NCBI RefSeq assembly: GCF_000428825.1
Contig: NZ_AUAR01000004.1
Location: forward strand, 62,001 to 126,000
Direction: 5' to 3'
Origin: Desulfomicrobium escambiense DSM 10707
Lineage (GTDB): Bacteria; Desulfobacterota; Desulfovibrionia; Desulfovibrionales; Desulfomicrobiaceae
DNA: 64,000 bases
The notes beneath the pieces were generated by a model. It was given only the letters and a program-made list of their open reading frames with translations. It made no database searches and was not told the origin of the DNA. Each line of letters begins with the position of its first letter. The stretch's first letter is position 1. Position numbers and translations under genes: made by a program. Shown here piece after piece: positions 28,224 to 64,000 of the stretch.

Positions 28224-28300
28224 CGGGGCGTAGCGCAGTTTGGTAGCGCATCGGTTTTGGGAACCGAGGGTCGCATGTTCGAATCATGTCGCCCCGACCA
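28224..28300 (+). tRNA. tRNA-Pro (anticodon UGG)
   Basis: A complete cloverleaf: acceptor CGGGGCG/CGCCCCG, D stem GCGC/GCGC, anticodon arm TCGGT-TTTGGGA-ACCGA with anticodon TGG, T arm with TTCGAAT and an encoded CCA. The C1-G72 pair is typical of bacterial tRNA-Pro. The island inserts into its 3' half, so the 3' half here is island-borne; the displaced original lies at 51377-51424. A terminator stem (28311-28343) with a T run follows. Confidence 0.97.
28253..28270 (+). repeat. Left attachment site core (attL) in tRNA-Pro
   Basis: 18 bases spanning the anticodon arm (GGTTTTGGGAACCGAGGG) are identical to 51377-51394. Beyond this core the T-stem sequences differ while pairing is preserved, as expected when an integrated element restores the tRNA. 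Confidence 0.9.
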
Positions 28301-47158: not shown

Positions 47159-49441
47159 ATGGCATACACGCATAATCTGGGCTATCCGCGCGTTGGCGCC
47201 CGCCGGGAACTGAAGGCCGCGCTCGAAGCCCACTGGAAGGGGCAGTTGTCCGCATTCGACCTCGAGGAGGCCGCCCGCGAGATCCGCACCGCCAACTGGC
47301 GGCGGCAGTCCGGGCTCGATCTGGTTCCGGTGGGGGACTTTTCGCTCTATGATCAGGTTCTGGATATGAGCTTCGCCCTGGGCAACGTCCCCGAGCGGGC
47401 CGAAGCCTGTCAGGGGACCGTCCTGGACCGCTATTTCCGTGTGGCTCGCGGCCGCACCGCGGGTGACGCTGCGGGCGTGGCGGCAGGTGAGATGACAAAG
47501 TGGTTCGACACCAACTACCACTACATCGTCCCCGAGTTCACATCCGGGACGGAGTTCACCCTTCATCCGCAGCGCATCCTCGAACAGGTGGACGAGGCCC
47601 GGGACGCTGGCGTATCGGCCAAGCCGGTGCTCATCGGACCCATGACCTATCTGTGGCTTGGCAAGGAAAAGGACGGCTCCGACAAATGGGGCCTCCTGGA
47701 CCGCCTGCTCCCGGTCTACGTCGAACTGCTCGGCCTTCTGGCCGGGCGCGGGGTGGGCTGGGTGCAGATGGATGAACCCGTGCTGGTCACCGATCTGGAG
47801 CCCCGTCAGCGCGACATGTTCGCCGGGGCCTACGCAGCCTTGTCGGGGCGCGGCGTCAGGCTGCTGCTGACCACGTTCTTCGGAGGCCTGGGTGAGAACC
47901 TCGATCTGGCCCTCGGCCTGCCGGTGGACGGCGTGCACGTGGATGCCGTGCGGGGCCGGGAAGAGTTGCCCGCCGTGGTGGACAGGCTGCCGAAGGGAAA
48001 AGTGCTGTCCGTGGGCATCATCGATGGCCGCAACATCTGGAAGACGGATCTGGCAGCCGCTCTTGATGTCCTCGAACCCCTGGACGCCCGCCTGGGGGAC
48101 CGGCTCTGGATCGCCCCGTCGTGTTCTCTGCTGCACGTGCCCGTGGATCTCGACCTGGAAACGGACATGGACGGGGAGATCCGTTCGTGGCTGGCCTTTG
48201 CCGCGCAGAAACTCGACGAGCTGAGGCTGCTCGGCCGGGCCTTGGACAGGGGGCGTGCGGCCGTGGCCGGGGAACTCGCCGCCAACGCTAAGGCCTTGGC
48301 GGGACGCCGATCCTCGACCCGCGTGCACGACCCGATCGTAAAGGCGCGCCTCGACGCCATCGAGCCATCCTGGGGAAACCGCCGGTCGCCGTATCCCGTT
48401 CGCTCGGCCCTGCACAGACGGCGGTTCGGCCTTCCCCTGTATCCCACCACAACCATCGGTTCCTTTCCGCAGACTGCGGAAATCCGCACGGCGAGGAGGC
48501 AGTACCGGGCCGGCGAGCTGAAACGGGAAGCTTATGTCCAGGCCATGCAGGACCAGATAAGGCGCGTGGTCTCGGCGCAGGAGGATCTGGGCCTCGATGT
48601 CCTTGTGCATGGCGAGGCCGAGCGCAACGACATGGTCGAATACTTCGGCGAGCAACTACGGGGCTATGTCTTTAGCGGTTTCGGCTGGGTGCAGTCCTAC
48701 GGTTCGCGTTGCGTCAAACCACCAATCATCTTCGGAGACATCTCCCGCCTTGGCCCGATGACCGTGGAGTGGATCACCTTTGCCCAGTCACTGACGGACA
48801 AGCCCATGAAAGGCATGCTGACCGGCCCGGTGACCATTCTGAACTGGTCCTTCGTGCGCGACGACCAGCCCCGTTCCCGGACCTGCCTGCAACTGGCCCT
48901 GGCCGTTCGTGATGAGGTGCTGGATCTGGAAAAGGCCGGCATCGGCATCATCCAGATCGACGAGGCGGCTCTGCGCGAGGGGCTGCCGTTGCGGACATCG
49001 CAGTGGCGGGAATACCTGGACTGGGCCGTGGGCGCGTACCGCATCGCGGCCAACGGAGTCAGGGACGAGACGCAGATACACACCCACATGTGCTATTCGG
49101 AATTCAACGACATCATCGCGGCCATCGCGGACATGGATGCCGACGTCATCACCATCGAGACCTCGCGTTCGGGCATGGAACTGCTCGATGTCTTCGACAG
49201 CTTCAGCTACCCCAACGAGATCGGGCCGGGCGTGTACGATATCCATTCACCCAACGTTCCGGAAGCGCAGGCCATGGTCGATTTGCTGCGTAAGGCAGCC
49301 CGGCACATCCCGCCGGAACGGCTGTGGGTCAACCCGGACTGCGGTCTGAAAACTCGTCAGTGGGGCGAGGTCCTCCCATCTCTCTCCGCAATGGTCGCCG
49401 CCGCGAAGACGATGCGGACCTCCACGGTCATCGACGTATAA
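47159..49441 (+). CDS. metE: Cobalamin-independent methionine synthase
   Basis: 760 residues, full length. Start [23 protein letters not shown]-terminal Zn ligands are seen in [13 protein letters not shown] (His and Cys), [13 protein letters not shown] (Glu) and [15 protein letters not shown] (Cys). It transfers the methyl of 5-methyltetrahydropteroyl-glutamates to homocysteine without B12. The last residues after MVAAAKTMR are supplied by the abutting IS256 remnant, which also gives the stop. GC content is host-like, unlike the AT-rich island core. The host has cobS (27 kb) and so probably makes B12; the island gene gives a B12-free route. Confidence 0.95.
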
Positions 49442-49668
49442 AGGGCCTTCAGATCGGCGGCGACATATTTGCCCTGCTTTCGGTTCGCGAACTTGAGGCT
49501 GTGACGCGCCATGTGCACTAGGCAGCGTTGGACATCGGCATGTGGGAAGACCGCTGCAGTAGTATAAGGAAAGCCTTTGAGGACGTCTACGGAGACAACG
49601 AAGATGCCGTTCCATGCCGCGTCTCTTGATTTTCGTGACAACATGTCGCAAGAATCCCCGCACCACAA
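49420..49668 (-). pseudogene. IS256-family transposase remnant abutting metE
   Basis: The minus-strand frame reads [62 protein letters not shown], the central part of an IS256 (mutator-type) transposase. Both ends are missing and no catalytic triad is complete. Its last codons run antisense into the end of metE. Confidence 0.8.
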
Positions 49669-49676
49669 TCGACACC

Positions 49677-49725
49677 CAAAATAAAACGAGGGTTACAGTA
49701 ACATGCTGTAACCCTATTTTATTTT
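49677..49725. terminator. Bidirectional terminator downstream of metE
   Basis: A 10-base stem (AGGGTTACAG with its complement around TAACATG) flanked by AAAATAAAA and TTTTATTTT, so it can terminate on either strand. It lies between metE/IS256 remnant and the second attachment-like repeat. Confidence 0.85.
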
Positions 49726-50033
49726 GTTCAGTCGGTTTGTTTGTCGGGGGGGGGACGCACCTAAAAGCGCCCAGGTGCTACAAAACCTAGTACGAAACCA
49801 AGGTGTCCCCGATGGCCATGTAAACCTCCCCAAAAGCAATTGCTGATGAGTTTTCATTTTTTTTGCTTGATTCTGCGGGGTCAAGAATGTAGGTCAAAAA
49901 TTACGTAGTGTTTTTGTGCTTAAGTAGCTAAATTTAATTGATTTTGAAGAATTAGCTGCGACGCCTCCGCTAGTCCCCCCTTCGACACTAATTATAAAGC
50001 CGCTACAGATGTTTCTGTAGCGGCTTTTTCGAT
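49726..50033. repeat. Attachment-like repeat, right copy, and integrase terminator
   Basis: It contains GGGGTCA, GTAGGTCAAAA, ATTACGTAG (from about 49877), then 85 bases on, AGTCCCCCCTTCGACAC (49972-49988), then a 13-base stem AAGCCGCTACAGA...TCTGTAGCGGCTT followed by TTTTTC. The same order and spacing occurs at 45816-45966. The hairpin also ends the integrase gene from the other side. No gene is supported. Confidence 0.65.
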
Positions 50034-51194
50034 TTATGCAGTTTTTGGATTTTCAACATCTATCGAAGTATTTTGCTTTTCAATATTCGCAAATAAATTT
50101 CCTGCCACTTCAGCTGCTCGTTTTAGAGCGTCATCACGAAGATGTGCGTAGCGCTGTGTCATTTGCGGAGATTTGTGTGTCAATAGCTTTTGTAGTGTAT
50201 AGATATCAACTTGACCAGAGCTGGCTAGCATTGAAGCATACACATGCCTGAGTCCATGCAAAGCTCGAAAATCTTCAGGAAGTCCGGCGCGGCGTTTTAT
50301 CCGTGCTGTTTGATGTTTGACATCTTTTCTCAAGCCTCCATTTCGGCCTGGGAAGACGTATTCACTGCCTGTTCTGGGGTGGTCCAGAAACAGTTGTCTG
50401 GCCGCTTCGTTCATTGGGATCCGCTGGTCCTTTCCGCCTTTGGGATCGCGGATAAAAATGAAACCTTTATCGAAATCTAAATCAGACCATTTCAGCTTGA
50501 ATATTTCTCCACGGCGCATGCCTGTGAAAAGGGCTGCTTTCATTATCCCTGCTGCTTGTATGTTCGTATCTTCAGCAATCGCTTTGAAAAGACGCTCCAT
50601 TTCATCTGGTGTCAGATCTTCAGTCTTGTGATTATCTGGTTTTGGAAACTCAATGGTAAAGGGCAAGCGAGAGCATAAGTGCATTTTAACGCCAAAATTG
50701 ATAATACGTCGAAACAATTCAAGTGTGTTTTTGACAGTCTGCGGACTCTTTGATTTGAGCATCATCACTCGAACCCTATCCACATCCAGTGGAGCAATTT
50801 CCTCGGGCTCCTTGTGACCGAAAGGAACTTCGAGATAGCGTATGAATCGGCTCTCGTCAGTCTTGATTCCTTTGAAATCAACTTTGCTTTTTTTGTACTC
50901 AGTCCACAGTTTGGAGAGCGTCCAGCGACTGTCGTCCGCCTCTTTCTCTGCCTTGATTTTGTTGCGCCGGGTTTTGTTCGAATCGGACTTTCCGTCTATG
51001 CGCTCGGCCCTTAAGCGGGCTGCCCTGGCTTCGGTCATGTCGTCACGGCCTTGGTAGCCAGCTTTCTCTTCGATCAGCTTTCCATCCCTGCGGTATACGA
51101 TGTAATAGACTCGTTCCGGTTTTCCATCCGCGCCAGTGCCGATGACGAAATAGACGCCTGGATAGCGCGTTTTTTCGCGTTTTCGTGATGGCAT
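50034..51194 (-). CDS. Tyrosine-type site-specific integrase
   Basis: 386 residues. An N-terminal arm-binding part is followed by a core-binding SAM-like domain (WTEYKKSKVDFKGIKTDESRFIRYL) and a catalytic domain with Arg in TGMRRGEIFKL, Lys in DPKGGKDQRIP, HGLRHVYASML (His/Arg) and HKSPQMTQRYAHL with the nucleophile Tyr. The protein is complete. It is placed between the right arm site and attR and points inward, the usual arrangement for an element that enters tRNA 3' ends. It is the likely driver of integration of the 28.25-51.39 kb island. Confidence 0.93.
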   Translation of the reverse strand: MPSRKREKTRYPGVYFVIGTGADGKPERVYYIVYRRDGKLIEEKAGYQGRDDMTEARAARLRAERIDGKSDSNKTRRNKIKAEKEADDSRWTLSKLWTEYKKSKVDFKGIKTDESRFIRYLEVPFGHKEPEEIAPLDVDRVRVMMLKSKSPQTVKNTLELFRRIINFGVKMHLCSRLPFTIEFPKPDNHKTEDLTPDEMERLFKAIAEDTNIQAAGIMKAALFTGMRRGEIFKLKWSDLDFDKGFIFIRDPKGGKDQRIPMNEAARQLFLDHPRTGSEYVFPGRNGGLRKDVKHQTARIKRRAGLPEDFRALHGLRHVYASMLASSGQVDIYTLQKLLTHKSPQMTQRYAHLRDDALKRAAEVAGNLFANIEKQNTSIDVENPKTA

Positions 51195-51236
51195 TTTTCC
51201 TCCAAACCAAGGGCTGGTGGGCTTAAACCGAGGATC

Positions 51237-51260
51237 GTCTGCCCAACACTATGCCCAACA
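51237..51260 (+). repeat. 24-base direct repeat just inside the right island end (arm site)
   Basis: Identical to 28358-28381. Three AGGTGAAAA words follow (51265, 51275 and 51357), probably additional integrase or Xis sites between the arm site and the core. Confidence 0.75.
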
Positions 51261-51376
51261 TTCGAGGTGAAAATAGGTGAAAAATGAGAAAAGTCAATGA
51301 AAGTCGACTTTGCTTAACTATCTGAAAAATAATAAATAATGCAAAGTGATGCAAATAGGTGAAAATGGTAGGATTA

Positions 51377-51394
51377 GGTTTTGGGAACCGAGGG
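51377..51394 (+). repeat. Right attachment site core (attR)
   Basis: 18 bases identical to 28253-28270. It is followed directly by the displaced tRNA-Pro 3' half. Confidence 0.9.
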
Positions 51395-51424
51395 CCGCTG
51401 GTTCGAGTCCAGTCGCCCCGACCA
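51377..51424 (+). tRNA. Displaced 3' half of tRNA-Pro (fragment)
   Basis: From the anticodon arm through T arm (TTCGAGT) to CCA, with no D arm or acceptor 5' strand. It differs from the intact gene at compensating T-stem positions and keeps a terminator stem (51433-51468) with seven T, so it is the original chromosomal 3' end left by the insertion. Confidence 0.9.
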
Positions 51425-51561
51425 GGAAAAACAAAGGCTTACAGGAAAATCACCTGTAGGCCTTTTTTTGCGCTCAGGCGATACAGTTTTTCCTATGCCG
51501 TTTGACATACGGAACCAAGCGAACTATGTACCCATTTTTCCAATAATATCAGCCTGTGAGC

Positions 51562-51592
51562 TTGTGCCGTCCTGACTCCGGGACGGTATATT
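51562..51592 (+). promoter_or_regulatory. Candidate MerR-type promoter of the megasynthase gene
   Basis: TTGTGC and TATATT separated by 19 bases, with a perfect dyad CCGTCC-N8-GGACGG filling the spacer. Long spacers with a dyad between -35 and -10 are the hallmark of MerR-family control. The -35 is a weak match, and the dyad could instead be an RNA hairpin. Confidence 0.35.
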
Positions 51593-51730
51593 TTAGGTGG
51601 TATTGTGGGGTTCTTGAGCCATTCTTACAGGAAAATCATTACGAGGCGTTCCAATTCTTTGCCAAAGATTGAGTACGCTTGAACCCTTCGGAATGATTGC
51701 ATCGGAACTTGAGACCGTATGGGGAATCAT

Positions 51731-54700
51731 ATGCCGCAGAGTGTGTCTGAGAAGGCTTTTTTCACCAGTTTTCAGAAAGAAGTATGGATTTCTCAGCACT
51801 ATTCCGGGCATGAAGACAATGCATGCATTTTGGCAAAATTTCGAATACTGCGGCGTATCGACAGGGATGTATTGCTGGAGGTCATACGTATTGCGCTGAT
51901 GCATCACGTTTTGATGACGGGGAAGATGCATCTGGATGAAAAGGAACCGTTCTTTGCTTTGCACAGCTACGATGATGTCGATATCTCGTTTGTCGATCTG
52001 CCAGGCGGGAGCGACACCCAGGATGAGATCGAGCGTGAACACGACAGGTTTTTCGAGCAGTCGCTGGGGGAGCGCCCTGTACGCTTTCTTCTCATCCGTT
52101 CGGACGCAGAAAGTTTCTTCGCCCTGAAATGCACGCACATCGCCCTCGACGGGTTCGGGACCTTCTGTTTTGTCGGCTTCATCGCCGACATCTACACCAG
52201 CCTGATGCGCGGCGAGAACGTTCCCATTGACGAGCATCCAGTCTGGCTGGACGTGTACCGGGAGGATCGGGAGCATTTCGCCTCGGCCAAGTTCACGCGG
52301 GACATGGAATTCTGGAAACGCCATCTCGAGCGGATCCCGGAGAAGCGGATTTTCCGGGCCCGGCCGGGGCATGCGGATGTGCTCGGAAATTCCCGGCACA
52401 GGAAATTTCATCTCGGCGAGGAAACGAGCCGGATCATCGACCGCGTCATCCTCCGCCACGGCATCAGCCCCAACATCTATTTCACGGCCCTGCATGCCCT
52501 GATCGTCGCCTTCATGTGCGACGAGAAGCAGTTCGTCATCCTCAACCCCGTCGCCTTCGGCGAGCGCAAGGTGCTGCACAGGCGGCAGGGGTATCAGGTG
52601 GCGATGCCGCCCGTGCTGATCGACCTGAACGAGCACGGTAGCATCGCCGGTCTCTTCGAGGACATTTCCGCCCAGGGGCGGTCGTTCTACCGCCATATCC
52701 GCACCCCGCACCAGGTCGCCATGCGCGAGCTCCCGCACAAGAACTTCTCGTGCCTGGGCGACATGTTCGTAAACTTCATCCCCGGCATGCCGAGCGGGTC
52801 GCCCGAGTTTCCCATCAAGACCGCCGAACAGGTCCACGGCAGGCATGAGGATCTCGTCCTGGGCATGATGGTGCTGCGTGAAGCGGAGACGGATACGTTC
52901 TCCCTGACCGTGCGCAGCAGTTGCAACCATCTGAGCGAGCAGGATGTAGAGCGCTACGTACGCAGGGTGGAGCACCTTTCCCGGCAGTTGGACGCAGGTG
53001 CGGATCTGGCGGACCTGTCCATGCTGCTCGACGAGGAGGAGCGCGAGCTGCGCGTTTGGCAGAACGGGCCGCGCAGGGAATACCCGCTGTCGTCGATCCC
53101 GGACCTGTTCGACGCCGTTGCCGGGAGGTACCGGGATCGGCCAGCGGTCAGGGACGAGGCGGGGGAAGAATTGTCCTACGCGACGCTCGGGGAGCGCTCC
53201 CTGCGGTGCGCGAAGTGGCTTCTGGACAAGGACGTCCGCCGCGGGGACCGCGTCGCCGTGCACGCCCGGCGGGTGCGTTGCCTGCCGGAGATCATCCTGG
53301 GGATCATGCGCATCGGGGCTGTCTATCTCCCGCTGGACCCGGCCTCCCCCCCGGAGCGCCTGCGCCTCATCTTGGACGACGCCGAACCCTCCCTGGTCAT
53401 GGATGCCGCCCGGCCGGAACACGAAAACGCGGCCCCCGCGGAGGTGAGGGAGACAATCGATCCCGCGGAAGGCGCCTACCTGATCTACACGTCCGGTTCC
53501 ACGGGCAGGCCGAAGGGCGTTCTCGTGCCCCACCGTGGTTTCACGAACATGATCCAGGGCCAGATAGAGATCTTCGGCGTGCGTCCCGAGGATCGTGTGC
53601 TGCAGTTCGCCTCTCCGGCCTTCGACGCGTCGCTGTCCGAAACATTCATGGCCCTTCTGGCCGGGGCGAGCCTGTATCCCGTCGGCGAAACCCTGCGCAG
53701 CGAACCCTGGAATCTGCAGGCGTACATGGCCGGCAACGCCGTTTCGGTCGCGACGCTGCCCCCTTCCTACCTGCACCTCCTGGACCGCGACGGGTACTGC
53801 CCGCGGGTGCTCATCACGGCGGGGGAGGCCCCCATCTCCCGGGACGCCCTGCATCTCGCCCGACGCTGCGCATATTTCAACGCCTACGGGCCGACCGAGA
53901 CGAGCGTCTGCGCCACCATCAAACGGGTGCTGCCCGATTCGTCCCAGCCCATCGGCTGCGGCCGTCCGATCCCCAACGTCCGGGCTCATGTCCTCGATTC
54001 CGGGCGCAGGCCCCTGCCGGCCGGCATGGTGGGGGAGCTGCATGTCGGCGGGGCCGGCCTGGCCCTCGGCTACCACGGCAACGCCGAGATGACGGCCCGG
54101 CGCTTCTTTCCGCTCTCCAGCGCCGGCGGCGAGATGGTCTACGCCACCGGCGATCTCGCCTCCTGGTCCGAAGACGGCGATCTCATGCTGGTCGGGCGGA
54201 CCGACGATCAGGTCAAGGTCAGGGGCAACCGCGTCGAACTCGGGGAGGTGACCGCGCTGCTCGAAACGTGCGACGCCGTCAGCCAGGCCTTTGTCCTGGC
54301 CAGCCGGGACGCCGCGGACCAGACCACGCTCGCCGCCTTTCTGGTGCTGCGACCCGGAGGCGCCATCGACTCCGTCGTGCGCTGGAGCAAGGACAACCTG
54401 CCCGGGTACATGATTCCCTCCTTCTGGCATGAGCTCGGCGCCATGCCGGTGACCGTGACCGGCAAGATCGACCGCGAGGCCCTGCGGGCCATCGTCGGCA
54501 GGGCCGAGGCCGCGTCCTCGGGCGGGGCGGACCTGGATCCCCGGCTGTTGAGGATTTTCGAACGGACTCTCGGCTACGCCTACGATCCGCAGCGGGATTT
54601 CTTCGCCCAGGGCGGGGACAGCCTGAAGGCCATGGCCCTTCTGCACGAGATCCGGGCCGCGTATTCGGTGGACGTGGCGTTCCGGGAATTCGTGCGCTGC

Positions 54701-54760
54701 GAATCGCTCCACGACGTGGCGAAGCTGTTGCGGGAGAAGCGTCCTGCGGCCGAGGCGGCG
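51731..54760 (+). other. Megasynthase module 1: C-A-T, tyrosine/aromatic-like pocket
   Basis: The N-terminal C domain has Thr in place of the first His of HHxxxDG but keeps the catalytic His136 and Asp140. The A domain has YTSGSTGRPKGV (586), NAYGPTET, YATGDL, TDDQVKVRGNRVELGE and Lys912. Aligning FDASLSETF, VATLPP, LITAG and NAYGPTETSVC to the phenylalanine-activating GrsA pocket gives D-A-S-T-I-A-A-V-C-K, close to a known tyrosine code (DASTVAAVCK, from memory). An N-terminal C domain on a first module often adds an acyl starter. Confidence 0.75.
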
Positions 54761-57700
54761 TTTTGCGACCAGGCCCCCCTGAACCGCAACCAGTTCCAGC
54801 TGTGGGCCTATCAGCAGGCCAACGACGGTTCCATCGACTACAACATGCCTCTGCTGATGAGGGTTAGCGGGGAGAGGGCGGCGGCGTTTGTCGACGCCCT
54901 GGCCGAGGCCATCGGCCGTCAGGAGCTTCTGGGCTGCACCGTGCAGGGCCCAATCGACGCCCCGTTTTTCCGTCGCGACCCCGACGTCGCCATCCCTGTC
55001 GGGCGCTCCGCCTTCCCGGATTTCGACTCGGCCCAGCGGCACATGCAGGAGTTGATCCACACGCCTTTCGACCTGCGCGCGCAATGCCCTGTGCGGCTGG
55101 AAATCGCCGAGGCGGGCGACGCTTTCGCGGTGCTGCTGCTCCTGCACCATATCGCCGGTGACGCGGACAGCATCGAACTTCTCCTGACGGGCGCCCTGCG
55201 CGGCATGCGCGGGGAACGGGGCGCCGCAGGGCGGCTGGCGACCCAGGCGGCGTTCTGTGCGCGCGAGGAGGCGTATCGGCGCTCGGCCGATTTCGCGGCG
55301 GACAAGGCCTTCTGGGACGCTGTCTTCGCGCCTCCGGCGGCGGTGCTGCATGCCTCGCCCAGGCGCAAGGGCGCCATGGTCGCCCTGGAGCTCACGCCCG
55401 CCATGACCGAGAGCCTTGAAGCGCTGGCCGGCCGGGCAGGCGCCTCGCTCCTGTCGTGTTTCGCGGCCCTGGTTGCGGCCTTTTTGCGGGACAGGTACGC
55501 CCGGCCGGAGCTCCTGGTCGGCGTCCCGGTGGGGCTGCGAGAAAGCGGCGAAGAGTTCGGCACCGTCGGTTTTTTTGTCAACACCGTCGCCCTGCGCCTG
55601 CGCGGGAGGGACCGGGACATGGTCGGGGCCGTGGAGGAAAGCGCCGCCCGGCTCAAGGAGGCCGTGGCGCACAGCCGGTACTGCGACGGCAGGGCGGTTG
55701 ACGTCCTGGCGACCCACGCCCCTGTCCCCCGCGTCGAGGACGACGGGCTCTCCGTGGACATGCTGGCCCCGGAACTCAGGGCCAGCAAGCTGACGGCCAG
55801 TTTCACCCTGGAAACGGGGCCGCGCTGCCGGCTCGTGCTCGAGTACGACGCGCTGTTCATCGAGGACGGCGCCGCGTTGCTGGAGGATTTCCGGGGCTTT
55901 ATCGAAACGGCCTGCGGCGGGAACGAGGTCCCGGACGGGACGCGGACGCTGGTTCGGGCCTGGACGGAGATGCTGGGCCGGGCGCCGGGAGGGGACAGCG
56001 ACTTCTTCATGGACGGCGGCGATTCCATCAAGGCCATCCAGATGACCGGGATGCTCCATCGGCGGGGCGTCACGGCTCTCGGGGCCGCCGATTTCCTGCG
56101 CACGCCGCGGTTCGCGGACCTCTGCGCCCTGGTCGCGGCCGGGAACGCCCCCTTGCAGACCGTACGCTTTGCGCCAGTGGAGGGCGGGCAGCGCGTGCCG
56201 CTGCTGCCCCTGCAGGCCGACCTCCTGCGGAACCACCCGCGGCACTGGACACGCTTCTGCATGGCGCTGCCCCTGGAACTGGACGCGCGGGTGGACGAGG
56301 GCGCCCTGGAGGAATGGCTGCGCACGCTGCCGGACAGGCACGAGGCGCTGCGGCTCGCCTTCTTTGACGGCGCGGCCACGATGCTGTCGCAGCCCCAACG
56401 CCCCTGCCTGACGCGCTGCTCCGTCGACGCTGGCCTGCCGCCGGAAGAGGCGGTGCGCACGGTGGCGCGGGCCGTACTGGCCGGAATCGACCCCGAGCGC
56501 GGCGCGACGTTCGGGGCGGGGCTGGCGGAACACGGGGGCAGGCGCCTGCTGCTGCTGGCCGGGCACCATCTGGTCCTGGATGCCGTGTCCCTTGATCGCC
56601 TGCGGCAGGATCTGACAGCCTGCTGCCTGGGCGCCGGCCGTGCGGCGGAAACCCTCGGCATGGCGACCAGGGCCGTCGAGATGCACAGATTGACGGAGTT
56701 CGGCGATTTTCCCGGCCGGGAGGAGCGCGATTTCTGGGAAGCGGTGTGCAGTACGCCCGGAGCGCGCCTCGTGGGTGTGGCGACCGAAGGGCCGGACCTG
56801 GCTTCGGAGCGTGTTTTCCTGCAGCGCCGGGTGGACGAGCCGCATCGGGGCCGGTCGCGTACCGTGCTGAAGGAACTGCTGACGGCCCTGGCCATGGCCC
56901 TTCACGCCCAAGGTCAGCGGGAGCCGATCTTTGTGACCCTCGAAAGTCACGGACGCGACTCCCTTCTCCCCGGGGCCGACATGAGCCAGAGCGTGGGCTG
57001 GTTCACCGCCGTCTGTCCGCTGCTGCTGCGTCCCGTCGCCGCATGCGAGGACGCGGCCCTGGGCTACGACCCGGACGCACACTTCACGCCGGGCAGCTGT
57101 ACGGCCTACGGGTATCTGCGCCAAGCGCATCCCGACGTGTTTCGTTACGATTCGCAGATCAGCTTCAATTATCTCGGGATGTTGAGTGTCACGGCGGACG
57201 CCGTATGCTGCGCACTCCCCGCCCTGGCCCTGCCGGGAGCGATTCCCGATCTGCTGCATCCCGAGTTCCGGCCGGACAATCCCCTCGATGTCATCGCCTT
57301 TGCCGACGAAGAGGGCGTCCTGCACCTCGGGGCGTATTTCAGCCCGGCCATCCTCGCCGGGGAGTGGGTGTCCGGGCTGTTGGAAGGCTGGGCCGACGTG
57401 CTGGCCGCGAGGGCGAAGAGGCGCCTGGGCGCGTCCGAGGACGTTCTGGCCATGGTCATGGAGAAAAGCGGCTGCCGCCGGGAAGACGTCGAACGCGTCA
57501 CCGCTCCGGACGACTGCCACGAGCCCATGCTCTACCAGTATCTGGCCGGGGACGACGGCGTCTACACGCAGCAGGTCGCCTTTCATTTCCGGGGCCGGAT
57601 CGACGATTTTCTGCTGCTTGGGGCCTGGAGGGGCGTGGTGGCCCGGCATGAAAGCCTGCGCTCCCTCTTTCCCATGACCTTCGAGGGGGAATTCCACCGC

Positions 57701-60700
57701 CTTGTCTTGCGGCAGGCCAGGACCAGCACGGCGTTTCATGACTTTTCCCATCTGCCGCAGGCCCTTGGCGCCGAAAAAATGGACGCGCTCCTCGACGCGG
57801 CGAGGCGCGAGGGCTTCGACCCTCAGACCGGTCCGCTGCTGCGCGCCCAGCTTTTCCGCCTCGGCCCGGATACCTTCACCTTCAGTTGGTGTTGCCATCA
57901 CCTGCTCATGGACGGCTGGTGCATCGGCATCCTGTTGCGGGAGATGTTCGCGCTGCACGACAGTCTTCGGGACGGGGTCTCGGCGGAACTGCCGCAACCG
58001 GCCGACCTGTCAGCCTACACCCGGTGGTTGTCGGCCTTCGACCGGCAGGATGCCAGGCGGTATTGGGCCGCGCTGCTGGCCGACGCGCCCGCGACCCGCA
58101 TCTGCGGACAGGAGACTCCCGGAGTGGCGGGCGACCCGGCCACGGTGGAACTGGCTCTGGACCCGGCCTGTGCCATGGGCCTGCAGGCCGCGGCGCGCGC
58201 AGGCTCCGTGACCCTGTCGGTGCTGGTACAGGCTCTGTGGGCCGTTCTGCTCGGCGCGGAAAGCGGCGGGAGCCGCGATGTCGTCTACGGCATAGTCACC
58301 TCCGGTCGGCCGGCCGAGGTCGACGGCATGGACCGGGCCGTGGGGCTGTTCATCCGCACGCTGCCGCTACGGGTGCGCTGGGCCGAAGGGGATTGTCTGG
58401 GCGGGCTGCTGCGCGGCCTGAAGGAGCAGCACCTCCAGCAGCTGCGCCACGGGTATCTGCCCCTGGCGGACATCGGGCGGGACCTGTTCGATCACCTCAT
58501 GGTCGTGGAGAACTACCCCGCGGACAATCTTTTCGACGCCGACCGGATGGAACTGCTGCGCGTCCAGGGGTTTGAGAAGATCCCTTACCCTCTCGGCATT
58601 TCCGTTATCCCCGGGGACACGTTGCGCGTGCGCTTCCTGTATGATCCGTCCCGCATGGACCATGGACGCGTGCGCGGCCTGGGCGAACGCCTCTTGGGGC
58701 TGGCGCGGGCCGTTGCGGCGGATGGGGCGGTGTCCTGCGCCGCGCTCGAAGCCCTGGCCGCCGGTGCCGGAGGGGTCGCGCCCCATGTGCGGCAAGCGCC
58801 TGCCGCCGCGACCAGCGGCGCGGCCCGGCCGTCGGGGGACTTTTCCGTCGGCGCGGCGGCGCCGGACGTGGAGGATGTCGTCAGGGACATTTACGAGTCC
58901 GTCCTGCAACGCCCGGTGCCGTCCGCGGATGCCGATTTCTTCCGGCTCGGCGGGCACAGCCTGCTGGCCATGCGTGTCCTGGCCCAAATAGGCAGGCGGC
59001 TTCACGTTCGTCTGACCATCGAGGACATCCTGACCCATTCCAGCGTACGGGCCCTGTCAATCCGAGTGCGCACAGCGGCCTCGTCCGCCGTGCGCATCGC
59101 CCGCGCGCCTCGCCGGGACCGCTACCCGCTGTCGGCAAGCCAGAAGCGCATCTGGTTTCTGCAGCGGCTGCACGAGGACAGCGGGGTATACCTGATACCA
59201 TTTGCTGCCCGCCTGGGCGCCGACGTGGACCCGAATCTGCTGCAGGACGCCCTGGGATTGCTGGAAGCGCGGCATGACGCCCTGCGCCTGCGCGTCCTGG
59301 CCGACGAGCCGGAGCAGATGCTCGTCGAGCCGGGCGCCCTGCGGCTCGAACTCCACGACGGTCCCTTCGCTCCGGACGCCTTCGGCGCCATGCCCTTCGG
59401 TCCGGACCGTCCCCTGGTCCGCGCGGCCCTGTTCCGGGAGCCAGACGGCGGGCAGGTCCTGGCCATGTGCCTGCACCACATTGTGTTCGACGGCTGGTCC
59501 GCGGAAATCCTCCTGCGCGAGTTGAACCAGGCCTGCGCGGCCGTGCTGCGCGGGACCGCGCCTGTCTGGGATCCCCTCGACCTCGACTATGTGGACTATG
59601 TCCAATGGGAGCTGGCGCAGGAGCCCGCGGATCTCGAAGCGTTGCGTGCGCGTCTGCTGCCCCTGCCCGAGAGCCTGCGGCTGCCGCTCGATTTTCCCAG
59701 GCCCGCCGTGCAGAGTCTCGACGGGGCCGTGGTCGCCTTCTCCCTGGGCAGGGAGCGAAGCCAGGGCCTCAGACGGCGGGCCGCGGACATGGGTGCGACC
59801 CTCTTTCCGACGCTTCTGGCTCTGGTCCAGACCTTCGTGTACCGGCACACCGGGCAGAACGACATGATCGTCGGATGCCCCGCGGCCAACCGCGAGCTGG
59901 AGCAGGTGCAGAACATGGTCGGCCTGTTCGTCAACACTCTGGCCATTCGCACGACACTGGCCACGGAAATGGGGTTTGCAACTCTGGTCCGCGCCGCACA
60001 GGAGGCGTTCCAGGAATCGCTGGCCCACCAGAACTGTCCGTTCGAGAAGGTGCTGGATGCCCTGAAGCTGGAGCGCAACCCCTCCCGCAACCCGCTTTTC
60101 GACGTTTTCGTGGCACTGGAGGACGCGAGCTGGGCCGATTACGACCAGCTTCCGCTGCGCCTTGAGCCCCTGTCCATGCAGCACGCGGGCAGCAAATTCG
60201 ATCTGAGCTTCTATTTCCGCGAAGGGCGTGACGGCGACATGTCCGTGCACATCGAATACTGCGCGGCCCTGTTCCGCGAAGAGACGATCCTGCTGATGCG
60301 CGAGCGGCTATGCGTGCTCGTTGACGACGTGCTGCAGGGGGGGGACGTCCCTCTGTCCCGCTTGGCCATCCTGCCGGAACATGAACGGGCCGCCATCGAC
60401 GCCTGCAACGACACGGCCGAGGAACTGGACATCGAGCGGGATATCGACGGCTGCTTCCGCGCGCAGGTGCGCCAAAGCAAAGCCGCCGTGGCGCTGCGCG
60501 ACGCCGCTGGGGCGTCCTGCACCTACGGGGAGCTGGACGCCAGAGTGTCGCGCCTCGCGGCCCAGTTGCAGGCCGGCGGCCTTTCGCGGGGCGATTTCGC
60601 CGGAGTCTGCTTCGAGCGCTCCATGGACATGATCGTCGCCGTCTTCGCCGTGCTGCGCGTCGGTGCGACGTACGTGCCCCTGTCGCCGTCACTGCCACAG

Positions 60701-63700
60701 TCGCGGCTTGCTTCGATGCTCGAGGATCTCGGCGCGTGCGCCGTGGTCTGCGAGGCCAGGTTCGCCGACGTGTTCGCCGGACCGGGCCGGACCGTGTTGA
60801 GCCCAGACCCGTTCGCGGCCCATGGCGAATTCGTCCCGGTTCCCGTGGCTCCGGACTCCGTGGCTTACGTCATCTTCACTTCCGGCTCCACCGGCAAGCC
60901 CAAGGGCGTGCCCATCGAGCACCGCAGCCTGGTCAACCGCATCCTCTGGATGCAGTCCCGTTTTCCCATCGGTGAGGGCGACGTCATTCTGCAGAAGACG
61001 ACCGTGTCCTTCGACGTCTCGGTCTGGGAGCTGTTCTGGTGGTCCTGGACCGGTGCGTCCCTGGCTCTGCCGGAACCGGGAGCGGAGCGGGATCCCGGCG
61101 GCATCGTCGCGGCCATCGAGACCAACCGCGTGACCGTGCTCCATTTCGTGCCGTCCATGCTGCGGACCTTCCTCGATCATCTCGAAGTCCGCCCCCGCGA
61201 GGTTCGCAGACTGAAAAGCCTGCGCTACGTGTTCACCAGCGGAGAGGCACTGACGAGTGACCTGGTCGCGCGCTTTCAGGCCCTGGTACCCTGCGAGCTG
61301 CACAACCTCTACGGCCCTACGGAGGCCGCCATCGACGTGACCTGGTTCCCCTGCCGGGGGTTTTCCGGGCATGCCGTGCCCATCGGGAGGCCAGTCAGCA
61401 ACACCCGGATTCACGTGCTCGCCGCGGACCTGCAGACCGTGCCCCTGGGCGTGACCGGCGAACTGTACATCAGCGGTGTGCAGGTTTCTCCCGGATACCT
61501 GCGCCGTCCCGCCCTCACGGCCGCGGCCTTTCTCGACGACCCTTTCCACCCGGGCTGCCGCATGTACCGGACCGGCGACTTGGGGCGCAGGCTCCCCGAC
61601 GGCAACATTGAGTACCTCGGAAGAAACGACGACCAGGTCAAGATTCGCGGTTTCCGCATCGAGCTCGGCGAGGTCGAAAGCGCCTTGGGCCGCTGTGCCG
61701 GCGTGTCGCAGGCCGTGGTGCGCGTCGGGGAGATCGGCGGGCAGTCCGCGCTGGAGGCCTTCGTGCTCCCCCACGAGGGCGTGCGGCTGGCCTACGCGGA
61801 CATCCGCCGCGAACTGGCTGGCCTGCTGCCTGAGTACATGTGGCCCGCGACCCTGGCAGTGGCGGAGGAGATCCCCTTGAGCCCGTCTGGCAAGGCAGAC
61901 CGCAAGAGGGTGACCGGGCGCAGACTGGCGCCCTCCGGCCCGGACGGCGCGGGGGAGACCACGGCGTTGCAGGAGGAGGTCAGGGCCGTGTGGCGCGAGA
62001 TTCTGCCAGAGCTGGAGACCGTCGACCTCGATCAGGGTTTTTTTGAAATCGGCGGCAACTCCCTGCTTCTGGTCAAGCTGCACACGGCTCTGGATGTACG
62101 GTGGCCGGGAGTTTTCAGCCTTGGCGGGCTGTTCGCGGAGAGTACCGTCCGGCAGCAGGCCGCACGCATCGGGGAACGGCCCGGGCCGCGACGTACGGTA
62201 GCGGTCCGAGGCGCGTCCGACGCCCCGGTCGCGGTCATCGGCATGGCCGTTCGCCTCGGCGACTACGAGGACCTGGACAGCTTTTGGGACGACCTGGCCC
62301 AGGGCCGCGACAAGAATGTGCCCCTGCCCACCGGGCGGCGTCAGGAAGTCCGGCAGATTTTCGAGGCTGTGGGCCTGCACTTCGACCCGTCACGGCTGCG
62401 CGAGGCCTCCTATCTGTCCGATGTCTCGTCCTTCGACCCCAGGCGGTTCGGCATGTCGCCGGGCGACGCGGCCATGCTTGACCCCAGGCAGCGCCTCTTC
62501 CTGCAGACGGCCCTGCAGGCCCTCGACGACGCCGGGTACGGTGGTGCGGCCCTGGAGGACGCGCCGGTCGGCGTGTTCGTCGGCGCAAGCCCCTACCGGC
62601 TGTTTCAGGACGCCGTGACGCGCGCGTTTCCGGAGCAGGCCGAACAGACGTATCTGCTGAACGTACCCTCCAATGTCGTGGCCAGGATTAGCTATCTCAA
62701 GAACTGGACAGGGCCGGGGGAAACCGTCGACACTGCCTGCTCCTCTGTCCTCAAGGCGGTCCATGACGCCTGCCGGAGCCTGCGCGCGGGCGATTGCGGC
62801 GTCGCCGTGGTCGGCGGGGCGCATATCATCGACCTGCCGGTCAGGACCGACGCGACCTTCGCCATAGAATCCGGCTCCGGACAGACCAAAACCTTCGACG
62901 CGCGGGCCGACGGCGTCGGGGCGGGCGAGGGGGCGGCCGTCTTCGTGCTCAAGCTTCTGGAACAGGCCGAGCGCGACCGCGACGCCATCCATGCAGTCAT
63001 CGTCGGCAGCGCCGTCAATCAGGACGGCAAATCCTCCAGCATGGCCGCGCCCAACCCCAAAGCGCAGGCCGAGGTCATCGCCCTGGCGGCCGCCAGCGCC
63101 TCCATCGGCCTGGCCGACATCGACGTCTTCGAGGCGCACGGCACGGCCACCGTGCTCGGCGATCCGGTGGAGATCGAGGGTTTGACCCAGGCATTCGCCC
63201 GTTCCGGGGCATCCCCGGCCCGCAAGGCCCCCATCGGGTCCGTCAAGGGCAACATCGGGCACCTCGATGCGGCGGCCGGCGCCCTGGGGTTGGCCAAGGC
63301 CGTGATGTGCCTCAAGCGAGGCGAGGTCCCGCCGCAGCCCCATTTTCAGACGCCCAACCCGCATATCGATTTTGAAGCCGCACCGGTGCGGGTGCCCCGC
63401 GTCTTGGAGCCGCTGCCGCCTGGCGGCAGACCCTGGCATTGCGGAGTCAGTTCCTTCGGCCTGAGCGGCATCAACGTCCACGTCGTGCTCCGGGGGCATT
63501 CCGGCCAGGCGTTGCCGGGGGACGACGGGAGCTGGCACTGCGTGCCCCTGTCCGCGGGCAGCGAGGAGCAGTTGGCGGCCTACTGCCGCCGGGTCCGCGA
63601 CATCGTGGCCCGGCATGAACATTGGCCCTTGCATGCCATCGCGGGCACGCTCACGGCCGGGCGCGAGCATCTCGACGTGCGGATCGCGGTCTGCGCCTCG

Positions 63701-64000
63701 TCCCGACAGGAACTGCTCGACGGCCTCGATGCCGGTCCGCGGCCCGAACGGGTCGGCCGCCCCCTCAGCGGAAGCGTGACAGGGGCCGGCTTCGCCACGC
63801 GGTCCGAAGCCGTCGCGGCCGCCGAGGAATTTCTGCGCGGGCGGTGCCTGCTGTGGCCCGCAGAGCGGCCCCTGCACAGGGTCCATCTGCCCGCGACGCC
63901 CTTCGAGCACAGCCCCATGTGGCCCAGATTCAGGTCCCGCTTCCTTTCCACTCCGGTGCCCACGCCCGGCGGCAGCGCGTTCGCGCTGGACATCGGCCGG
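51731..64000 (+). CDS. Giant hybrid nonribosomal peptide / polyketide synthase (3' end beyond window)
   Basis: One open frame of about 4,090 codons without a stop to the window edge. It starts at ATG 51731 (MPQSVSEKAFFTSFQKE) behind a weak GGGGAA site. Domains: C1 (1-430), A1 (451-945), T1 (Ser964); C2 (1015-1395), T2 (Ser1432), E (1489-1890); C3 (1929-2330), T3 (Ser2410); C4 (2465-2880), A2 (2907-3400), T4 (Ser3444); KS (3498-3925, Cys3670, His3803, His3844). Condensation sites: C1 THIALDG, C2 HHIAGDA, C3 HHLLMDG, C4 HHIVFDG. Modules 2 and 3 have no A domain, and no acyltransferase is seen after KS. The gene makes a peptide-polyketide with at least one D-residue. GC content matches the host. 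No tailoring, thioesterase or MbtH gene lies in the window. Confidence 0.93.
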   Translation, partial: MPQSVSEKAFFTSFQKEVWISQHYSGHEDNACILAKFRILRRIDRDVLLEVIRIALMHHVLMTGKMHLDEKEPFFALHSYDDVDISFVDLPGGSDTQDEIEREHDRFFEQSLGERPVRFLLIRSDAESFFALKCTHIALDGFGTFCFVGFIADIYTSLMRGENVPIDEHPVWLDVYREDREHFASAKFTRDMEFWKRHLERIPEKRIFRARPGHADVLGNSRHRKFHLGEETSRIIDRVILRHGISPNIYFTALHALIVAFMCDEKQFVILNPVAFGERKVLHRRQGYQVAMPPVLIDLNEHGSIAGLFEDISAQGRSFYRHIRTPHQVAMRELPHKNFSCLGDMFVNFIPGMPSGSPEFPIKTAEQVHGRHEDLVLGMMVLREAETDTFSLTVRSSCNHLSEQDVERYVRRVEHLSRQLDAGADLADLSMLLDEEERELRVWQNGPRREYPLSSIPDLFDAVAGRYRDRPAVRDEAGEELSYATLGERSLRCAKWLLDKDVRRGDRVAVHARRVRCLPEIILGIMRIGAVYLPLDPASPPERLRLILDDAEPSLVMDAARPEHENAAPAEVRETIDPAEGAYLIYTSGSTGRPKGVLVPHRGFTNMIQGQIEIFGVRPEDRVLQFASPAFDASLSETFMALLAGASLYPVGETLRSEPWNLQAYMAGNAVSVATLPPSYLHLLDRDGYCPRVLITAGEAPISRDALHLARRCAYFNAYGPTETSVCATIKRVLPDSSQPIGCGRPIPNVRAHVLDSGRRPLPAGMVGELHVGGAGLALGYHGNAEMTARRFFPLSSAGGEMVYATGDLASWSEDGDLMLVGRTDDQVKVRGNRVELGEVTALLETCDAVSQAFVLASRDAADQTTLAAFLVLRPGGAIDSVVRWSKDNLPGYMIPSFWHELGAMPVTVTGKIDREALRAIVGRAEAASSGGADLDPRLLRIFERTLGYAYDPQRDFFAQGGDSLKAMALLHEIRAAYSVDVAFREFVRCESLHDVAKLLREKRPAAEAAFCDQAPLNRNQFQLWAYQQANDGSIDYNMPLLMRVSGERAAAFVDALAEAIGRQELLGCTVQGPIDAPFFRRDPDVAIPVGRSAFPDFDSAQRHMQELIHTPFDLRAQCPVRLEIAEAGDAFAVLLLLHHIAGDADSIELLLTGALRGMRGERGAAGRLATQAAFCAREEAYRRSADFAADKAFWDAVFAPPAAVLHASPRRKGAMVALELTPAMTESLEALAGRAGASLLSCFAALVAAFLRDRYARPELLVGVPVGLRESGEEFGTVGFFVNTVALRLRGRDRDMVGAVEESAARLKEAVAHSRYCDGRAVDVLATHAPVPRVEDDGLSVDMLAPELRASKLTASFTLETGPRCRLVLEYDALFIEDGAALLEDFRGFIETACGGNEVPDGTRTLVRAWTEMLGRAPGGDSDFFMDGGDSIKAIQMTGMLHRRGVTALGAADFLRTPRFADLCALVAAGNAPLQTVRFAPVEGGQRVPLLPLQADLLRNHPRHWTRFCMALPLELDARVDEGALEEWLRTLPDRHEALRLAFFDGAATMLSQPQRPCLTRCSVDAGLPPEEAVRTVARAVLAGIDPERGATFGAGLAEHGGRRLLLLAGHHLVLDAVSLDRLRQDLTACCLGAGRAAETLGMATRAVEMHRLTEFGDFPGREERDFWEAVCSTPGARLVGVATEGPDLASERVFLQRRVDEPHRGRSRTVLKELLTALAMALHAQGQREPIFVTLESHGRDSLLPGADMSQSVGWFTAVCPLLLRPVAACEDAALGYDPDAHFTPGSCTAYGYLRQAHPDVFRYDSQISFNYLGMLSVTADAVCCALPALALPGAIPDLLHPEFRPDNPLDVIAFADEEGVLHLGAYFSPAILAGEWVSGLLEGWADVLAARAKRRLGASEDVLAMVMEKSGCRREDVERVTAPDDCHEPMLYQYLAGDDGVYTQQVAFHFRGRIDDFLLLGAWRGVVARHESLRSLFPMTFEGEFHRLVLRQARTSTAFHDFSHLPQALGAEKMDALLDAARREGFDPQTGPLLRAQLFRLGPDTFTFSWCCHHLLMDGWCIGILLREMFALHDSLRDGVSAELPQPADLSAYTRWLSAFDRQDARRYWAALLADAPATRICGQETPGVAGDPATVELALDPACAMGLQAAARAGSVTLSVLVQALWAVLLGAESGGSRDVVYGIVTSGRPAEVDGMDRAVGLFIRTLPLRVRWAEGDCLGGLLRGLKEQHLQQLRHGYLPLADIGRDLFDHLMVVENYPADNLFDADRMELLRVQGFEKIPYPLGISVIPGDTLRVRFLYDPSRMDHGRVRGLGERLLGLARAVAADGAVSCAALEALAAGAGGVAPHVRQAPAAATSGAARPSGDFSVGAAAPDVEDVVRDIYESVLQRPVPSADADFFRLGGHSLLAMRVLAQIGRRLHVRLTIEDILTHSSVRALSIRVRTAASSAVRIARAPRRDRYPLSASQKRIWFLQRLHEDSGVYLIPFAARLGADVDPNLLQDALGLLEARHDALRLRVLADEPEQMLVEPGALRLELHDGPFAPDAFGAMPFGPDRPLVRAALFREPDGGQVLAMCLHHIVFDGWSAEILLRELNQACAAVLRGTAPVWDPLDLDYVDYVQWELAQEPADLEALRARLLPLPESLRLPLDFPRPAVQSLDGAVVAFSLGRERSQGLRRRAADMGATLFPTLLALVQTFVYRHTGQNDMIVGCPAANRELEQVQNMVGLFVNTLAIRTTLATEMGFATLVRAAQEAFQESLAHQNCPFEKVLDALKLERNPSRNPLFDVFVALEDASWADYDQLPLRLEPLSMQHAGSKFDLSFYFREGRDGDMSVHIEYCAALFREETILLMRERLCVLVDDVLQGGDVPLSRLAILPEHERAAIDACNDTAEELDIERDIDGCFRAQVRQSKAAVALRDAAGASCTYGELDARVSRLAAQLQAGGLSRGDFAGVCFERSMDMIVAVFAVLRVGATYVPLSPSLPQSRLASMLEDLGACAVVCEARFADVFAGPGRTVLSPDPFAAHGEFVPVPVAPDSVAYVIFTSGSTGKPKGVPIEHRSLVNRILWMQSRFPIGEGDVILQKTTVSFDVSVWELFWWSWTGASLALPEPGAERDPGGIVAAIETNRVTVLHFVPSMLRTFLDHLEVRPREVRRLKSLRYVFTSGEALTSDLVARFQALVPCELHNLYGPTEAAIDVTWFPCRGFSGHAVPIGRPVSNTRIHVLAADLQTVPLGVTGELYISGVQVSPGYLRRPALTAAAFLDDPFHPGCRMYRTGDLGRRLPDGNIEYLGRNDDQVKIRGFRIELGEVESALGRCAGVSQAVVRVGEIGGQSALEAFVLPHEGVRLAYADIRRELAGLLPEYMWPATLAVAEEIPLSPSGKADRKRVTGRRLAPSGPDGAGETTALQEEVRAVWREILPELETVDLDQGFFEIGGNSLLLVKLHTALDVRWPGVFSLGGLFAESTVRQQAARIGERPGPRRTVAVRGASDAPVAVIGMAVRLGDYEDLDSFWDDLAQGRDKNVPLPTGRRQEVRQIFEAVGLHFDPSRLREASYLSDVSSFDPRRFGMSPGDAAMLDPRQRLFLQTALQALDDAGYGGAALEDAPVGVFVGASPYRLFQDAVTRAFPEQAEQTYLLNVPSNVVARISYLKNWTGPGETVDTACSSVLKAVHDACRSLRAGDCGVAVVGGAHIIDLPVRTDATFAIESGSGQTKTFDARADGVGAGEGAAVFVLKLLEQAERDRDAIHAVIVGSAVNQDGKSSSMAAPNPKAQAEVIALAAASASIGLADIDVFEAHGTATVLGDPVEIEGLTQAFARSGASPARKAPIGSVKGNIGHLDAAAGALGLAKAVMCLKRGEVPPQPHFQTPNPHIDFEAAPVRVPRVLEPLPPGGRPWHCGVSSFGLSGINVHVVLRGHSGQALPGDDGSWHCVPLSAGSEEQLAAYCRRVRDIVARHEHWPLHAIAGTLTAGREHLDVRIAVCASSRQELLDGLDAGPRPERVGRPLSGSVTGAGFATRSEAVAAAEEFLRGRCLLWPAERPLHRVHLPATPFEHSPMWPRFRSRFLSTPVPTPGGSAFALDIGR
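54773..57450 (+). other. Megasynthase module 2: C-T-E without an adenylation domain
   Basis: C2 (HHIAGDA, last Gly replaced by Ala) is followed after about 250 residues, past VNTVALRLRG, directly by the carrier MDGGDSIKAI (the form that precedes E domains), then an epimerization domain: GHHLVLDAVSL (His1612-1613), LESHGRD, QSVGWFTAVCP and SFNYLG. No A motifs lie between C2 and T2. Confidence 0.8.
57515..59090 (+). other. Megasynthase module 3: C-T without an adenylation domain
   Basis: C3 has an intact CHHLLMDGW (His2056-2057, Asp2061) and GRPAEVDGMDRAVGLFIRTLPLRV, fitting a C domain that takes a D-configured donor after E. It is followed directly by the carrier LGGHSLLAMRV (Ser2410). Again no A motifs. 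Confidence 0.8.
59123..62190 (+). other. Megasynthase module 4: C-A-T, serine-like pocket
   Basis: C4 has HHIVFDGW (His2582-2583). A2 has FTSGSTGKPKGV, NLYGPTEA, YRTGDLGR, DDQVKIRGFRIELGE and Lys3388. The pocket read from FDVSVWELF, VLHFVP, YVFTSG and NLYGPTEAAID is D-V-W-H-F-S-L-I-D-K, one conservative change from the serine code of EntF. The carrier is IGGNSLLLVKL (Ser3444). Confidence 0.82.
62222..64000 (+). other. Megasynthase module 5: ketosynthase and post-KS region, cut by window end
   Basis: KS begins APVAVIGMAVRLGD and has all three catalytic residues: Cys in DTACSSV, His in EAHGTATVLGDP and His in KGNIGHLDAAAG. After GVSSFGLSGINVHVVL, a linker of about 150 residues ends VHLPATPFEHSPMWPRF, the kind of post-KS tail that directly precedes modification domains when no cis-AT is present. 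No GHSxG acyltransferase motif is seen to the window end. Confidence 0.8.

Follow-up and report, generated by a model that had tools for sequence, protein, structure and literature searches.

Near the end of a 64,000-nucleotide stretch of DNA from Desulfomicrobium escambiense DSM 10707, here called the window, a ketosynthase (KS) follows a module predicted to carry serine, and no acyltransferase (AT) core lies between the KS and the window edge. The locus raises the question of how a polyketide module without an AT obtains its extender unit, which amino acid it extends and how the modules in front of it, two of which have no A domain, are loaded. The original prediction, made from the letters of the window, saw in this region a trans-AT-style tail and suggested that two kinds of in-trans loading may feed one enzyme. 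The window corresponds to bases 62001-126000 of contig C4 (246,769 bases) in a 3.78 Mb genome of 38 contigs with a completeness of 100, and the assignment of the host as a sulfate reducer is supported by a single dsrA match (604.9 bits), which lies over the cut-off. We consider it probable that the KS belongs to the serine-extending PKS module of an AT-less hybrid NRPS-PKS, which would be fed by FabD and would produce a Michael-acceptor peptide.

Anatomy and conservation of the assembly line

The KS is part of a mega-ORF of 5438 aa on the + strand, which starts with an ATG at 51719 and extends past the window edge to window coordinate 68035. A second ORF outside the window (ORF2; 1134 aa, 68032-71436) overlaps the end of the mega-ORF by four bases. 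Pfam matches and motifs give the domain order C-A-T / C-T-E / C-T / C-A-T / KS-DH-KR-T / C for the mega-ORF, whilst ORF2 encodes an A domain (A6) split by an inserted methyltransferase (MT), followed by T6 and TE. All domains of the mega-ORF lie on the + strand. The line begins with an N-terminal and possibly starter (acyl-accepting) C domain, C1 (51752..53068, aa 12 to ~450, PF00668, motif THIALDG), followed by A1 (53132..54466) and the carrier T1 (54542..54730; Pfam, motif GGDSL). Module 2 consists of C2 (54812..55918; Pfam, motif HHIAGDA), the carrier T2 (55946..56134; Pfam and motif) and an epimerisation-type domain (56321..57613) of the Pfam Condensation family, which we take to be an E domain on account of its HHLVLDA, LESHGRD and FNYLG motifs. 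Module 3 is made up of C3 (57671..58750; Pfam, motif HHLLMDG) and the carrier T3 (58877..59059; Pfam and motif). Modules 2 and 3 contain no A domain by Pfam, as the original prediction had noticed, and the joint between C2 and T2 is short in the alignment of all ten lines compared. C4 (59114..60397; Pfam, motif HHIVFDG), A4 (60455..61894) and the predicted serine-bearing carrier T4 (61973..62170; Pfam and motif) then lead directly into the KS.

The KS with its C-terminal extension (62222..63733; PF00109 and PF02801, Pfam E-value 5e-52) begins at aa 3502. It carries the complete Cys-His-His set that had been predicted for it, with the Cys in DTACSS at 62738-62740 and the two His residues in EAHGT at 63137-63139 and in GHLDAAA at 63260-63262, and this set is kept in 10/10 homologues. 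The predicted LPxxPF-type element after the KS is likewise present, as LPATPF at 63887-63904; the exact string occurs in 4/10 homologues and LPxxP in 9/10. It is followed by a DH of the double hot-dog type (from 63920 to ~64711, crossing the window edge; Pfam and predicted fold) and then, outside the window, by KR, T5 and C6 (Pfam and motifs) up to 68035. Neither between KS and DH nor 3' of the KS in the mega-ORF is there an AT, as judged by Pfam, an HMM and the sequence across the window edge. A cis-AT past the window edge, with the GHSxG acyltransferase that the original prediction had named as the finding that would speak against it, is excluded, because the downstream sequence shows the linker, DH, KR, T and C domains instead.

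After C6, the mega-ORF ends in a tail (aa ~5268-5438, window coordinate ~67520-68035) with a weak likeness to the C-lobes of C domains. The BLAST matches of this tail are weak (best E 3e-4 to Tistrella, and 0.012 inside the mega-ORF protein itself), and it may possibly be the remnant of a lost module or C domain.

A search of 150 relatives gave ten strong homologues of the post-KS region, our own included, in ORFs of ~5440-5716 aa. The ten lines are colinear over their full length without large insertions, and their KS cores are 68-82% identical per 100-residue block. The dN/dS ratio (omega, computed with a custom NG86 script) is 0.03-0.27 in every domain except the tail, where it is 0.37-0.39; the Pfam E-values, the colinearity of the ten homologues and these ratios together exclude a chance or decayed locus. 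One homologue (G063) has its mega-ORF broken by an in-frame TAG, and every other mega-ORF compared is open. At a threshold of E 1e-150 or better, the KS is found in 17/348 genomes of the order and in 6/59 genera. The remark of the original prediction that trans-AT lines are rarely reported from sulfate reducers is right as regards the host, but the line is not unique to it, and a shared, undescribed product is implied across several sulfate-reducer genera. Open-licence PMC papers yielded no report that places a line of this type in Desulfovibrio or Desulfovibrionaceae; neither of the two that name both Desulfovibrio and thalassospiramide ties it to sulfate reducers, nor do the papers on barnesin, calpain and strain SS-5 cited below.

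Among the 80 loci of a scan of named genomes, KS identity is 70-72% for Desulfovibrio sp. A2, Pseudodesulfovibrio, Desulfocurvus, other MAGs, Magnetospirillum fulvum MGU-K5 and a Verrucomicrobia MAG, 51-52% for two Pleomorphomonas and a soil proteobacterium and 40% or less for the rest. A separate search gave 47.8% for a locus on the Tistrella mobilis plasmid pTM1; a DNA search of E. coli gave no family match. The copy on the contig of Magnetospirillum fulvum MGU-K5 is 55% identical to our line over 4327 aa, and in the KS tree it branches within the Desulfovibrionales; it reflects either horizontal transfer or assembly contamination.

Malonyl supply, descent of the KS and probable fate of the serine

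The free AT for which the original prediction had proposed a downstream search was not found: there is none in the 43.7 kb read beyond the end of the mega-ORF, in which Pfam covered the cluster ORFs up to 87.1 kb. A PF00698 search of the whole genome returned a single match, on contig C17, and the protein carries GQGSQ, GHSLGE and AFHS, which we read as FabD motifs, taking the protein to be FabD. Among the 16 line-bearing genomes, six have exactly one AT match, in an ORF of 317-480 aa, and eight have two to four; one has its single match in a 1296-aa ORF, and one, which is 86% complete, has none. FabD is the sole AT-family candidate donor in this genome and in five relatives. Additional AT-containing ORFs occur in 4/10 of the compared genomes (G034, G067, G046 and G030), so that FabD is not the sole candidate there. 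The module is thus trans-AT in the broad sense, as a KS module with no AT in the same protein. It has neither the dedicated trans-AT gene in the cluster that marks the classical type nor the adjoining malonyl-CoA transacylase gene of the iturin type, the one AT of the genome being the FabD encoded elsewhere. It is very probable that the module is AT-less and receives malonyl in trans, and probable that FabD is the malonyl donor for T5.

The descent of the KS was followed in a tree of 74 rows, i.e. 10 family rows and 64 of 156 KSs chosen by locus, a choice that left out near-duplicates and the majority of Streptomyces and PUFA-type KSs; each KS was labelled by whether an AT follows it (AT HMM on the 156 KSs). 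Fifteen family KSs (support 100) form one group with the Tistrella and Pleomorphomonas types (100), and the next branch holds BamA and a Paenibacillus KS (support 92, not starred), both of which are AT-less and adjoined by a malonyltransferase gene. The cis-AT KSs of hybrid lines surround the family together with BamA and Paenibacillus, and the main B. velezensis trans-AT KSs lie elsewhere. A second tree without two long rows (L067_1 and L157) gave the same picture. Forcing the 18 family-type KSs together with the 11-row B. velezensis/Methylosinus clade was rejected by an AU test (p = 0.000866), a value that applies to a group named after the tree was seen, a classical clade sampled through the B. 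velezensis record and a small set. An earlier AU test (p 2e-14) was set aside, as its B. velezensis set was not one clade in the free tree. In the tree, the KS thus groups with the AT-less NRPS-to-PKS KSs of Alphaproteobacteria and, less firmly, with iturin-type KSs. Together with the AU rejection, the tree makes the loss of the AT in this line look separate from the classical trans-AT radiation; the trans-AT style of the original prediction holds for the missing AT, but not for the position of the KS, which lies outside the classical clade. In Pleomorphomonas-type loci, a PKS module that contains an AT precedes an AT-less serine module like ours, so that a cis-AT and an AT-less module adjoin each other.

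The DH match is weak in Pfam, where PS-DH covers the second half alone, and the domain was therefore folded together with its nine relatives. The model has a mean pLDDT of 76.7, and its best structural match is the DH of RzxB (5il6, a trans-AT PKS dehydratase; Z 29.1, rmsd 2.2, 252 residues). The Gly-rich motif, Ser, Tyr and Lys of the KR are conserved. The usual DH motif is HxxxGxxxxP; its proline is replaced by Val or Ala in the ten homologues, and full DH activity is therefore not certain.

Two alternatives bear on this module. A dedicated trans-AT encoded elsewhere and missed by the family search would make the line a classical trans-AT PKS, and such ATs are indeed the rule for trans-AT PKSs, with BamA and the Paenibacillus plasmid line each having one adjoining. 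This is very improbable, however, as the 100% complete genome gave one PF00698 match in a search that was positive in 10/14 control genomes, no AT is present among the annotated cluster genes and the KS was placed outside the classical clade by the AU test. The other alternative concerns the DH, which could be inactive or programmed not to act, leaving a KR-only module and a statine-like 4-amino-3,5-dihydroxypentanoyl unit. The altered motif proline speaks for it, as does the omega of the DH, which at 0.18-0.27 marks the least constrained of the catalytic domains, and thalassospiramide G, according to the abstract of PMC3705361, bears both unsaturated and dihydroxy forms. Against this stand the catalytic His4103 and Asp4256, which are invariant in 10/10 sequences, and the intact predicted fold. 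We regard the dihydroxy unit as rather unlikely and, with reasonable though not strong confidence, favour the vinylogous serine unit over a hydroxy unit.

Loading of the carriers, neighbouring genes and the proposed product

The specificity codes of all three A domains are identical or, for A4, nearly so in 10/10 lines. We take the A1 code, DASTIAAVC, to be Tyr/Phe-like and the A6 code, DAQDLAVVD, to be Gln-like. The A4 code, DVWHFSL(I/V)D, presumably denotes serine by its anchors, in agreement with the original prediction of serine as the last amino acid before polyketide extension. In the genome, TIGR01733 exceeds 200 bits in the three A domains of the line alone (439, 348 and 261 bits), and the next matches, at <=195 bits, are acyl-CoA or acyl-ACP ligase-like. 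A free-standing NRPS A domain was sought and rejected, the next-best candidates being proteins that resemble a benzoate-CoA-ligase, an MbcS-type acyl-CoA-synthetase and an acyl-ACP phospholipid acyltransferase. At E 1e-60 or better, 8/10 genomes have exactly three NRPS-type A domains, all in the line, and G034 and G067 have seven. As no NRPS-type A domain lies outside the line in our genome, the A-less modules must be loaded by its own A domains or by a non-NRPS ligase. It is unlikely that a free-standing NRPS A domain charges them, and of the two in-trans loadings of the original prediction the one at the PKS module probably stands, whilst the other does not in the form of such a domain. Inter-modular loading, in which the A domains of the line charge more than one T, is somewhat favoured; alternatively, T2 and T3 could be charged by an adenylating enzyme of non-NRPS type.

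Several genes surround the line. Those downstream encode a cyclic-peptide-type ABC exporter (74721-76496; TIGR01194 282.8 bits, just under the cut-off of 286.2), a Band_7/SPFH protein (76894-78063) within an export block kept in 8/9 relatives, which could be a clue to resistance or target, two ABC substrate-binding-like proteins and an MFS protein. The minus strand downstream encodes a formyltransferase-like protein, a phosphopantetheinyl transferase, a type II thioesterase, a KamA-like radical SAM protein (84434-85573; TIGR00238 256.8, over the cut-off of 199.2) and FemAB (86079-87146), which is absent from the list of shared neighbours and was rejected as part of the line. ORF2, the KamA-like gene and thioesterase II are neighbours in 9/9 relatives; the exporter, both substrate-binding-like proteins, Band_7 and DUF697 proteins in 8/9; and the MFS and formyltransferase genes in 7/9. 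The G078 contig ends 3 kb after ORF2, and most shared neighbours are missing there. Upstream of the mega-ORF lie a LysR-type gene, a gene that we take from its translation to be MetE-like and, at a distance of 0.5 kb, a tyrosine recombinase (50034-51194, minus strand). The recombinase was not seen among the shared neighbours of the relatives and coincides with a GC dip at ~49000-52500; the two could possibly mark the edge of an island. No tRNA was found in the window apart from a tRNA-Pro at 28224-28300.

The role of the A-less modules and that of the KamA-like enzyme can each be read in another way. Modules 2 and 3 might be skipped or dead, the product being just acyl-Tyr-vinylSer-X, as would suit modules without A domains in lines of which 8/10 come from genomes that have no free-standing NRPS A domain. 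All ten lines, however, keep the motifs of their C and E domains and every T serine, including those of T2 and T3, and an omega of 0.05-0.25, measured in two pairs of relatives, puts C2, T2, E2, C3 and T3 under purifying selection; the A-less modules are therefore not decaying, and we consider their being idle improbable. That the KamA-like enzyme supplies a beta-amino acid for T2/T3 or T6, and is thereby central to the product, is a more open but still doubtful proposal. The gene adjoins the line in 9/9 relatives with 66-73% identity of its product, and among the conserved genes we recognised no further one that might supply a building block. Its GK near the C-terminus is kept, but a Met stands in ten sequences in the column of Asp293 of 2a5h, which, by our own count, we take to be the lysine-binding residue of lysine 2,3-aminomutase (LAM); by that residue, its substrate would not be lysine, and the Asp expected of a true KamA is lacking. 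The gene is also absent from the Tistrella and Pleomorphomonas stretches read, which are partial neighbourhoods.

We propose that FabD, the housekeeping enzyme of fatty acid synthesis, would load malonyl onto the ACP of the line in trans, and that the KS would condense this unit with the peptidyl-seryl-T4. The KR and DH would then convert the beta-keto group into an alpha,beta-unsaturated 4-amino-5-hydroxypent-2-enoyl (vinylogous serine) unit, after which one further amino acid (Gln-like code, possibly methylated) would be added. The TE would release or cyclise the chain, and the adjacent cyclic-peptide-type ABC exporter would secrete it. The A-less carriers T2 and T3 would be charged by the line's own A domains in the multitasking manner proposed for thalassospiramide. 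The product would be a Michael-acceptor peptide and may, as we suggest tentatively, act as a protease inhibitor; the warhead type in related compounds hits cysteine proteases or the proteasome. The more elaborate combination of three A domains serving five carriers, a shared FabD and a KamA-derived beta-amino acid beside the vinylogous serine in a small macrocyclic Michael acceptor, whose ring would have 9 or 10 members on esterification of the serine hydroxyl, is rather improbable as a whole. Because the genome encodes a single AT-family protein and no more than three A domains of the NRPS type, it offers a simple background for testing directly whether the FabD of primary metabolism supplies a type I PKS module and whether several carrier proteins share an A domain.

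Comparison with known systems

With classical multimodular trans-AT PKSs, the line shares the lack of a cis-AT and a DH whose predicted fold is nearest to trans-AT dehydratases; in contrast to them, as represented by the B. velezensis KSs, its KS lies outside the main clade, it has no dedicated AT and it contains a single PKS module. Iturin-type BamA (bacillomycin D) is likewise an AT-less KS in an NRPS hybrid and lies on the neighbouring KS branch, but it has the dedicated malonyl-CoA transacylase gene bamD alongside and occupies another chain position.

The closest sequence found is the Tistrella mobilis pTM1 NRPS WP_014747683.1 with the AMP-binding protein that follows it. The pTM1 line is 41.5% identical over 2029 aa and colinear from T3 to DH (T-C-A-T-KS-DH), and the AMP-binding protein, across the record origin after the NRPS, is 37% identical to ORF2. 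The record names the genes non-ribosomal peptide synthetase and AMP-binding protein, and we infer that they are the thalassospiramide cluster. Both our line and the thalassospiramide type of Thalassospira and Tistrella, which stands for protease-inhibitor producers among marine bacteria and is compared here through a review, have a Ser A-T followed by an AT-less KS-DH-KR-T and a terminal A(MT)-T-TE. The thalassospiramide type starts as a lipopeptide at a starter C domain; in our line, the N-terminal C1 may be of this subtype. The line of the anaerobic sulfate reducers differs in its epimerisation module, the two A-less modules in front and the KamA-like gene, and its terminal A code is DAQDLAVVD, as opposed to DAIDVGAVG in Tistrella. 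In thalassospiramide, two residues follow the extended serine, the last being N-methyl-Tyr, and the ring is 12-membered; here, the PKS module is followed by no more than C6 and a single A(MT)-T-TE, and Pfam on the cluster ORFs found no further A or T after the latter. For thalassospiramide and didemnin, a trans AT from primary metabolism is reported in PMC5577590, as is A-domain multitasking for the thalassospiramide type. The unsaturated amide of thalassospiramides undergoes Michael addition to calpain Cys115 (PMC4350077), and the magnetotactic strain SS-5 has a 5128-aa ORF resembling ttcB (PMC4306944).

According to PMC13096860, the anaerobe Sulfurospirillum barnesii produces barnesin A with an AT-less KS-DH-KR, for which FabD is the donor. 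When barnesin's own FabD was omitted in an E. coli host, the yield was slightly lower, and the authors ascribe this mild drop to the FabD homologue of the host (same paper). Likened by the description in PMC13096860 rather than by sequence, the brn cluster and our line have in common an anaerobic host, an AT-less KS-DH-KR making a vinylogous amino acid, a starter C (possible in our line), an aromatic first A domain, and a cyclic-peptide transporter and phosphopantetheinyl transferase nearby. As described there, brn encodes two proteins, PKS last, for a lipodipeptide with an extended Arg, whereas here Ser is extended mid-chain. Our best reading of the locus is a conserved serine-homologating NRPS-PKS of the Desulfovibrionales, a variant of the thalassospiramide/barnesin type that presumably depends on FabD.
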